Below, piece by piece: positions 29,776 through 31,889 of a stretch of 64,000 bases of DNA (positions are counted from its first letter, which is position 1; the number at the start of each line of letters is the position of its first letter). Made by a program: the position numbers and the translations under genes. The stretch covers positions 186,001 to 250,000 of the forward strand of contig JAKPDD010000023.1 of assembly GCA_029552945.1 (NCBI GenBank), read 5' to 3'. The notes beneath the pieces were generated by a model. It saw nothing but the letters and a program-made list of their open reading frames with translations. It searched no databases and was not told the origin of the DNA. Source of the stretch: Spirochaetota bacterium (GTDB taxonomy: Bacteria; Spirochaetota; GWB1-36-13; JAKPDD01).

Positions 29776-29837
29776 GATTTATTAAAATATTACAATTTTA
29801 TATTAAATTTTTAGAATCATTCTAAAATATAAAAGAG

Positions 29838-31889
29838 ATGGGGGAATTCTTGGTTACTCATATAATAAAAAGAAATGGTGATATCGTAAAATTCGATAAA
29901 GAAAAGATATTCAATGCTATATGGAAGGCTGTACAAAGCGTAGGAGGAAATAATCCTCAACCAGTAACAGAAATAACCAATTTAGTGGTAAGAGAAATTG
30001 AAAAAAATTTTATCGATAGAATCCCAACTGTCGAAGAAGTTCAGGATATTGTAGAAAAAATGTTAATCGAAAAAGGGCATGCAAAAGTTGCTAAATCATA
30101 TATACTATACAGAGAAAAAAGAGCAGAAGCAAGGCAAGCTGATGCTATAATAAAAGAAACAATATCATTGATAGATGATTATTTGAAAGAAAAAGATTGG
30201 CGTGTAAATGAAAACTCAAATACATCATACTCTTTACAAGGACTTAATAATCATATTTCATCATCATTTACATCTCACTACTGGCTATATAAAATATATC
30301 CTAAAGAAATAAGAGAAGCTCATATAAATGGAGATTTCCATATACATGACCTTGGAATTTTAGGAACATATTGCGTAGGATGGGACCTTAAGGACTTCTT
30401 AATTAAAGGCTTTAGAGGAGTATTTGGGAAAGTAGCAAGCAATCCCCCAAAACATTTTAGAACAGCTTTAGGCCAGTTAGTTAATCTTTTATACACTTTG
30501 CAGGGAGAGAGTGCAGGTGCACAAGCAGTATCTAACTTTGACACACTTCTTGCTCCTTTTGTAAGATACGATAAATTATCATATGCAGAAGTAAAGCAGT
30601 CTATTCAAGAGTTTATTTTTAATATGAATGTTCCCACAAGAGTTGGATTTCAAAGTCCTTTTTCAAATATAACAATGGACCTTGTTGTTCCTGATAATTT
30701 TAAAGATAAAAATGTGATAATTGGCGGCAAAGAGATGCCAGAAAAATATTCTGAATTTCAAAAAGAGATGTACATGATAAATAAAGCTTTTTGTGAAGTA
30801 ATGCTTGAGGGTGATGCTGATGGAAGGCCTTTTTCATTTCCAATCCCAACATACAATATAACAAAAGACTTTGATTGGGATAATCCAGAACTGGAAAAAT
30901 TATGGTTTATGACAAGTAAATATGGGACTCCATATTTTGCAAACTTTATAAACTCTGATATGGAACCTGAAGATGCAAGAAGTATGTGTTGTAGATTAAG
31001 ACTTGATAACAGAGAATTAAAAAAGAGGGGTGGGGGATTATTTGGAGCAAATCCTCTTACTGGTTCAATTGGAGTAGTGACAATAAATATGCCTTCAATT
31101 GCTTATATAACAAAAAATGAAAATAAGTTCTTCGAAGAATTAGACAAAAGAATGATTATGGCAAAAAACTCTCTTGAAATAAAAAGAAAAGTTATTGAAA
31201 GTCTTACTGAGAAAGGCCTATACCCATATTCCAGATACTATCTTTCAGAAATTAAAAAGATAAGTGGAGCATACTGGAACAATCATTTTTCAACAATTGG
31301 TCTTGTAGGAATGAACGAAGCATGCTTAAACCTTTTTGGTAAAGACTTAACAGACAGTTATTCTTATCAATTTGCATTAAAAGTAATGGAATTCATGAGA
31401 AAGAGGATAAGTGACTTTCAGGAAGAAACTGGACACCTTTATAACCTTGAAGCTACTCCTGCAGAAGGAACATCATATAACCTTGCATTAAAGGATAAAA
31501 AAAGATATCATGACATAATAACATCAGGCAAAGATGAGCCATATTATACTAATTCAACACAACTACCAGTTTCTTTTACAGACGATATATTTGAAGCACT
31601 GGAACATCAGGATAAACTTCAGAGTATGTATACCGGGGGCACTGTACTCCACATATTTATAGGAGAAAAAATCAAACATACAAATACTGTAAAGTTTTTA
31701 ATAAAAAAAATATTTGAAAACTACACACTCCCATATATATCAATAACACCAACATTTTCTATATGCCCAGTGCATGGATATATACCAGGTACACATCATT
31801 TATGCCCTTATGAAAATTATGAAGAAAACAAAAAAGAAGAAAAAGATAAAACAACAGAAAATAAAGTTTTATTTTTAGGCTTAAAATAA
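29838..31889 (+). CDS. nrdD: anaerobic ribonucleoside-triphosphate reductase (NrdD-like) lacking a C-terminal glycyl-radical domain
   Basis: N-terminal ATP-cone, NGDFHIHDLGILGTYCVGWDL, NMNVPTRVGFQSPFSNITMD, SMCCRLRLD; ends ..CPVHGYIPGTHHLCPYENYEENKKEEKDKTTENKVLFLGLK* without an RVxGY motif. Confidence 0.9.
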   Translation: MGEFLVTHIIKRNGDIVKFDKEKIFNAIWKAVQSVGGNNPQPVTEITNLVVREIEKNFIDRIPTVEEVQDIVEKMLIEKGHAKVAKSYILYREKRAEARQADAIIKETISLIDDYLKEKDWRVNENSNTSYSLQGLNNHISSSFTSHYWLYKIYPKEIREAHINGDFHIHDLGILGTYCVGWDLKDFLIKGFRGVFGKVASNPPKHFRTALGQLVNLLYTLQGESAGAQAVSNFDTLLAPFVRYDKLSYAEVKQSIQEFIFNMNVPTRVGFQSPFSNITMDLVVPDNFKDKNVIIGGKEMPEKYSEFQKEMYMINKAFCEVMLEGDADGRPFSFPIPTYNITKDFDWDNPELEKLWFMTSKYGTPYFANFINSDMEPEDARSMCCRLRLDNRELKKRGGGLFGANPLTGSIGVVTINMPSIAYITKNENKFFEELDKRMIMAKNSLEIKRKVIESLTEKGLYPYSRYYLSEIKKISGAYWNNHFSTIGLVGMNEACLNLFGKDLTDSYSYQFALKVMEFMRKRISDFQEETGHLYNLEATPAEGTSYNLALKDKKRYHDIITSGKDEPYYTNSTQLPVSFTDDIFEALEHQDKLQSMYTGGTVLHIFIGEKIKHTNTVKFLIKKIFENYTLPYISITPTFSICPVHGYIPGTHHLCPYENYEENKKEEKDKTTENKVLFLGLK

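Follow-up and report, generated by a model that had tools for sequence, protein, structure and literature searches.

A gene for the catalytic chain of a class III, anaerobic ribonucleotide reductase (RNR), nrdD, lies in the window, a 64,000-nucleotide stretch of the Spirochaetota assembly GCA_029552945.1 (contig JAKPDD010000023.1, positions 186,001 to 250,000; the genome is G000 below). Its product ends before the glycyl-radical domain (GRD), and a separate GRD gene lies elsewhere in the same genome. The features of the nrdD gene, which has an alternative TTG start at 29850, are as follows.

29838..31889, plus strand: nrdD body, a class III RNR catalytic chain that lacks a GRD, 683 amino acids
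29859..30125, plus strand: ATP-cone, residues 8-96 (Pfam PF03477, 1.1e-24)
30210..31808, plus strand: NRDD catalytic domain, residues 125-657, profile positions 1-525 of 562 (Pfam PF13597, 8.7e-181)
30981..30995, plus strand: SMCCR motif, residues 382-386, from the sequence; the MCCR variant of the NrdDh subclass (subclass motif from PMC4493059)
31764..31805, plus strand: three zinc ligands, C643, H646, and C656 (CPVHGYIPGTHHLC; CPVHGY...CP), invariant in 17 split NrdDs
31806..31886, plus strand: body-specific charged tail where the GRD would be, residues 657-683, ending KVLFLGLK; a low-confidence region of the model

The retention of the ATP-cone and the SMCCR active-site region, reported in a first-pass annotation made from the letters alone, is borne out by Pfam and by the sequence, and C384 and C385 of the MCCR motif, together with C179 (YCVGW), are invariant among the 17 split NrdDs. 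The same annotation was right that the glycyl-radical loop is missing: the profile match stops at 525/562, leaving the final 37 positions without a counterpart in the chain, and the match to the top NCBIfam model, a PRK08270-type NrdD, reaches position 649 of 684. The C terminus reads CPVHGYIPGTHHLCP followed by YENYEENKKEEKDKTTENKVLFLGLK, with the stop falling within the second zinc knuckle, and the NrdD of a relative from the same order terminates in KKLIFLKPNALV. The accompanying statement that the second half of the zinc site is lost holds for the fourth ligand, in whose place the body has CPYENY, but C656 remains beside C643 and H646; the second ligand is a His, as it is in the zinc site of Thermotoga maritima NrdD, CxxxHx6CxxC (PMC4493059). 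Two features of a strictly single-chain NrdD, the radical loop and the four-ligand zinc site, are thus absent from this chain, and a second gene supplies both, the fourth ligand being found only on the GRD. An AlphaFold2 model of the body alone (pLDDT 77.7) matches class III RNR structures (Foldseek 7e-31, TM about 0.7) and contains the ten-stranded barrel; its low confidence at the finger loop (residues 382-406) and at the C terminus would fit an absent partner but proves nothing.

A search of the whole of G000, which is 99.17% complete in 50 contigs, with the NRDD profile gave two matches only, the window open reading frame (positions 1-525) and a small one (525-562), which jointly make up one full profile. 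The small match (C3:116908-117018, minus strand, 3e-10) sits in a 61-codon open frame, and the two genes of interest outside the window are as follows.

G000:C3:116851-117021, minus strand: GRD gene, 57 amino acids, partner of the window NrdD (NRDD profile match)
G000:C3:36431-37003, plus strand: NrdG2 activase (8e-65, over the cut-off)

The absence of a GRD from every frame near the window nrdD, noted at first pass for the other two forward frames just past the last conserved residues, follows from the location of the only other NRDD match on another contig. The GRD gene is single-copy and begins with an ATG that follows AGGAGGTAAGT, and it has its own ribosome-binding site (AGGAGG) immediately upstream of this start; its product is MSKCGKETEVYSRVVGFYRPTKLWNKGKKEEFKERKTFGLEKISKLDSVKKSEKKVV. 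In Pfam, this protein matches the NRDD model (PF13597) exclusively and no glycine radical domain of the pyruvate formate-lyase (PFL) type, and in NCBIfam 20.0 it matches the C termini of full-length NrdD models alone, far under their cut-offs. A profile of such GRDs aligns, in solved structures, with T. maritima NrdD over residues 612-646, a segment that includes the radical residue of that enzyme, Gly621 (PMC4493059).

The first-pass annotation found no NrdG-like activase beside nrdD, which is correct for the neighborhood, but NrdG2 is encoded on contig C3, so that body, GRD, and activase occupy three separate locations in the genome; NrdG2 was found in all 31 NrdD-containing genomes tested. 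In G000 and in the other genome of its order, a radical-SAM gene (PF04055, FGPVNSRRLG type) stands directly after the GRD (L032 4014-4940; L033 5227-6201). It was considered as a dedicated activase and rejected, homologues being present in 20/22 genomes, with split and unsplit NrdDs alike, and linked to a GRD only in G000 and its relative G001; NrdG2 is therefore the likely activase. The genome-wide inventory proposed at first pass thus recovered NrdG2 and the GRD; the whole-genome NRDD search revealed no full-length NrdD in G000, and no large chain of a class I or II RNR was found there by a search that was positive in 11/14 control genomes. Class I/II enzymes were likewise not found in seven other genomes with split NrdD (eight with G000). 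Since no other RNR was found in a genome that is 99% complete, the two-piece enzyme should supply its deoxynucleoside triphosphates (dNTPs).

The truncation is not peculiar to G000. An NRDD match was obtained in 34 of 61 genomes from the phylum; two of these (G051 and G052), which are weak or of another kind, were set aside, and 25 of the remaining 32, with a clear NrdD of the window kind, read as split (G000-G003, G007, G008, G014, G015, G019, G020, G025, G026, G030, G031, G036, G037, G041, G042, G045, G046, G049, G050, G053, G057, and G060). G001, the only other genome seen of the window's order, has the same truncation, with nrdD and GRD on separate contigs. The usual order is nrdD-GRD-nrdG2, in which the GRD is the next gene, in any frame and with its own ribosome-binding site and ATG, commonly followed by nrdG2. 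In G019 and G030, each a single contig, GRD and nrdG2 are about 530 kb and 95 kb, respectively, from nrdD; therefore fragmentation of assemblies is not the cause of the unlinked layouts. Selenocysteine insertion or stop read-through, considered for cases in which nrdD and GRD share a frame, was rejected, as the stops are nearly all TAA, a ribosome-binding site and ATG intervene, and other genomes differ in frame. In G018, G029, and G040 (L066, L070, and L071), the GRD follows a linker within the NrdD chain; these proteins are nested among split NrdDs on the tree and are likely re-fusions, and a nested clade of this kind shows that the two pieces belong together.

Several variations on this arrangement occur. 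GRDs with a C-terminal redoxin-like CxxC domain characterize a group of genomes, among them G002, G007, G015, G026, G037, G041, G046, G049, G053, and G060 (examples are L049 5729-6262, L051 5519-6000, L063 1573-2112, and L065 446-991); matches of this domain to the glutaredoxin and thioredoxin families of Pfam are weak and below the cut-off. The fusion would unite the radical carrier and a possible reductant in one small protein, in keeping with reports that certain NrdDh enzymes use a reductant of the thioredoxin type (PMC4493059). G041 has a second, different NrdD with an adjacent separate GRD of the RRITGYLVGTLDRFNDAKRAEE type (G041:C85:35062-35160; L048), and so another kind of NrdD besides that of the window may be split too. 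Extra stand-alone GRD copies occur at L055 (G024:C449), L041 (G020:C65), L043 (G042:C9), and L068 (G014:C55), in genomes already equipped with a complete NrdD system; the NrdD of G024 is contiguous, and its extra GRD could be a true spare part.

Outside the phylum, about 19 of the best 80 (closest) NrdDs in a GTDB comparison set are truncated; they come from Thermodesulfobacteriota, Elusimicrobiota, Muiribacteriota, Acetothermia, TA06, Patescibacteria-type, and archaeal records. A separate GRD was found in 18/18 searched genomes of these lineages with a truncated NrdD, always adjoining nrdD, and three Elusimicrobia have additional copies. In the thermophile Thermodesulfatator autotrophicus, too, the two genes lie side by side. 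In a deltaproteobacterial metagenome-assembled genome (L109), the in-chain radical loop is degenerate (EIHTGVIPYGRPIRQW), and no GRD was found within about 1.5 kb downstream of its NrdD. A tree of the bodies, cut before the zinc region and built by a quick method, requires 11 changes between the split and contiguous states, of which at least 9 are imposed by branches with good support; the trait has therefore changed many times, the direction of each change not being fixed by the tree. In related split pairs, purifying selection on the two halves is strong: where dN/dS could be calculated for close pairs, GRDs gave 0.02-0.16 and bodies 0.02-0.07.

The fourth zinc ligand is carried by one chain, and by one only, in 43/44 split pairs. 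In 37/44, it is on the body (as CxxC or CxxxH), and a Cys is lacking from the GRD at the position five residues ahead of E-V-Y-S-R, whereas in 6/44 it is on the GRD and not on the body; the latter include the pairs from G000 (CPYENY / SKCGKETEV) and G001 (CPYLDV / RKCNRETEV). L077 has it on both chains, and no pair lacks it on both. The pattern is what a two-chain zinc site would give and is suggestive of one.

A candidate regulatory site immediately precedes the gene.

29811..29825, plus strand: PerR/Fur-box-like palindrome TTAGAATCATTCTAA, ending 12 bases upstream of the nrdD ATG

This is the sole match in the window, where 0.33 is expected, to TTANAATNATTNTAA, the PerR/Fur-box consensus. 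The form TTAGAATNATTCTAA occurs at two places only in G000; the second (G000:C25:8799-8813; L240 1484-1515) has another box beside it and is upstream of genes for a flavin reductase-rubredoxin and a ferritin. In G001, boxes (L033 5000-5014 and L035 6391-6405) stand upstream of nrdD, with 1 mismatch, and of the unlinked GRD, with none. One Fur-family gene is present. These sites weakly suggest that the unlinked halves may answer to an oxidative-stress regulator.

GRDs also occur alone in viruses. A scan of viral contigs, whose records may be fragments, with the GRD profile gave at least 80 loci (L156-L235), of which at least 66 are stand-alone small open reading frames. Of 48 viral records searched whole, 47 contain a lone GRD and no NrdD body, an absence that is not proof for any one virus, and 1 contains a split body with a GRD. 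The lone genes are about 45-70 codons long (L180, L192, and L218, for example) and have weak or no matches in PHROGs. Several have phage genes around them, L180 with Mu Gam and L192 with thymidylate synthase being examples. The zinc Cys is present in 57 of 68 stand-alone GRDs, as in that of G000, and absent from 11. On a GRD tree built to ask whether the GRD of G000 came from a phage (40 columns, mostly unresolved), the copies nearest to that of G000 are those of the same order, followed by a phage GRD. A second GRD of G001 is located within a prophage, with terminase and SSB genes (L034 5047-5241; G001:C140), and is identical in sequence to L156. In ANMV-1 virus (KP703175.1; L236 2710-3144), a 144-residue product whose annotation reads anaerobic ribonucleoside triphosphate reductase is much too short to be an NrdD and has a GRD-like end.

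These results point strongly to a class III RNR of two subunits, in which the window NrdD is the catalytic body and the separate 57-residue GRD supplies the radical in trans. Supply in trans was one of the possibilities raised at first pass and is now favored by the GRD gene, the purifying selection on both halves, and the finding of no other RNR. In the mechanism envisaged, the GRD would dock at the usual site of the C-terminal domain, where its Cys4 would complete the zinc site, the other three ligands, C643, H646, and C656, coming from the body. NrdG2 would then abstract a hydrogen from Gly16 of the GRD (RVVGF), and the radical would move from the GRD to the active-site cysteine of the body for catalysis. 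Some points weigh against this reading. The complex of body and GRD is itself deduced from sequences. The zinc-ligand complementarity has a row-wise Fisher p of 1e-6 but reflects only 2-3 independent changes on the tree, and it is therefore not statistical proof. The GRD of G000 has no good copy of the operator, the best having 2 mismatches, as expected by chance. Because G000 is in 50 contigs, an overlooked class I/II RNR remains conceivable.

Among the alternatives, the first is that the GRD merely repairs an NrdD cleaved by O2, in the manner of YfiD/GrcA, while the enzyme's own domain lies elsewhere. The logic is that of YfiD and Y06I (PMC8683613), and stand-alone phage GRDs and a PerR-like box upstream of nrdD are in keeping with it, but there is no intact NrdD in G000 to mend and the GRD is therefore obligate, not a spare; this explanation is improbable, although repair after O2 damage may be an additional function. 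The YfiD/GrcA analogy drawn at first pass is accordingly apt for the mechanism and fails for the status of the part. Even less credence is given to the possibility, also raised there, of a truncated NrdD that has no activity or a regulatory role and evolves under relaxed selection, with dNTPs coming from another RNR; that the radical glycine is missing from the chain is all that speaks for it, whereas the lack of any other RNR found in G000, active-site motifs invariant in the 17 split NrdDs, strong purifying selection in split pairs, and the presence of a matching GRD gene speak against it. Post-translational joining of the halves, through a split intein or trans-splicing, is hardly plausible: two genes do share one profile, but the body has just 27 extra residues and the GRD 3 before its Cys, and Pfam detects no intein domain in either. 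Least plausible of all is an assembly or sequencing error, a frameshift, or a recent rearrangement of a normal gene, for despite the 50 contigs of G000 no normal C terminus was found in the sister genome, the truncation recurs in G001 and across the 25/32 phylum genomes, single-contig ones included, the GRD has its own ribosome-binding site and start, and the body has its own tail.

Beyond the two-subunit enzyme, a wider proposal is advanced tentatively, as a serious but insecure possibility. The GRD could act as an exchangeable cartridge for the radical, being a small subunit of its own that has been repeatedly split off in evolution, is replaced after cleavage by O2, and is carried alone by many phages to arm or re-arm the host NrdD; in the window's order, it would also complete a shared zinc site.

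In class I RNR (NrdA/NrdB), the radical is stored on a second subunit, its carrier being metal/tyrosyl; this carrier is unrelated to the GRD, and the likeness is in principle alone. The NrdDh class III enzymes of T. maritima and N. bacilliformis (PMC4493059) share with the present system the barrel fold, the MCCR/SCCR motif, the zinc ribbon and RVxGY loop, and an NrdG-type activase in the genome, but have everything in one chain, whereas here a 57-residue protein from another locus bears the radical loop and the fourth zinc ligand. YfiD/GrcA of Escherichia coli and the phage T4 protein Y06I, which serve PFL as spare parts (PMC8683613), are also small free glycyl-radical proteins with a separate body, and a phage version exists; the GRD, however, is of the NrdD type (PF13597 only), much smaller, of the zinc-knuckle type, and obligate. 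Validated glycyl-radical spare parts are those of PFL only, although the authors of that study speculate on others (PMC8683613). The split class II RNR of Pseudomonas aeruginosa, NrdJa/NrdJb (PMC4520616, PMC9669993), is likewise encoded as two chains, the second of which holds the C-terminal zinc-finger region, but obtains its radical via B12, whereas in the window system the second chain carries the radical itself. The nrdD genes of Aeromonas phage phiAS4 and Lactococcus phage 949 (PMC3653736) are also in more than one piece, but these fragments are isolated and adjacent, some arising from introns or inteins, whereas the split described here is recurrent, conserved, and at one site. No description of a split NrdD or a trans-acting GRD was found in the open-licence literature; subscription papers, preprints, and RNRdb were outside the search, and prior notice is possible.

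In described class III RNRs, the radical glycine is within the catalytic chain, and it is there that O2 cleaves that chain. A natural two-chain enzyme separates radical storage from catalysis; with parts made separately, one could follow how the radical is installed, how the subunits dock, and how the radical is transferred, and the arrangement suggests that O2 damage could be mended by swapping a 50-residue subunit. Lone phage GRDs likewise suggest a very cheap route by which a phage might boost the dNTP supply of its host. Genome annotation is also corrected, as such NrdDs look truncated and the small GRD gene is easily missed. The surroundings of nrdD in the window fit a probable spirochaete origin, a gene downstream of it encoding FlaA (Pfam 1e-44).
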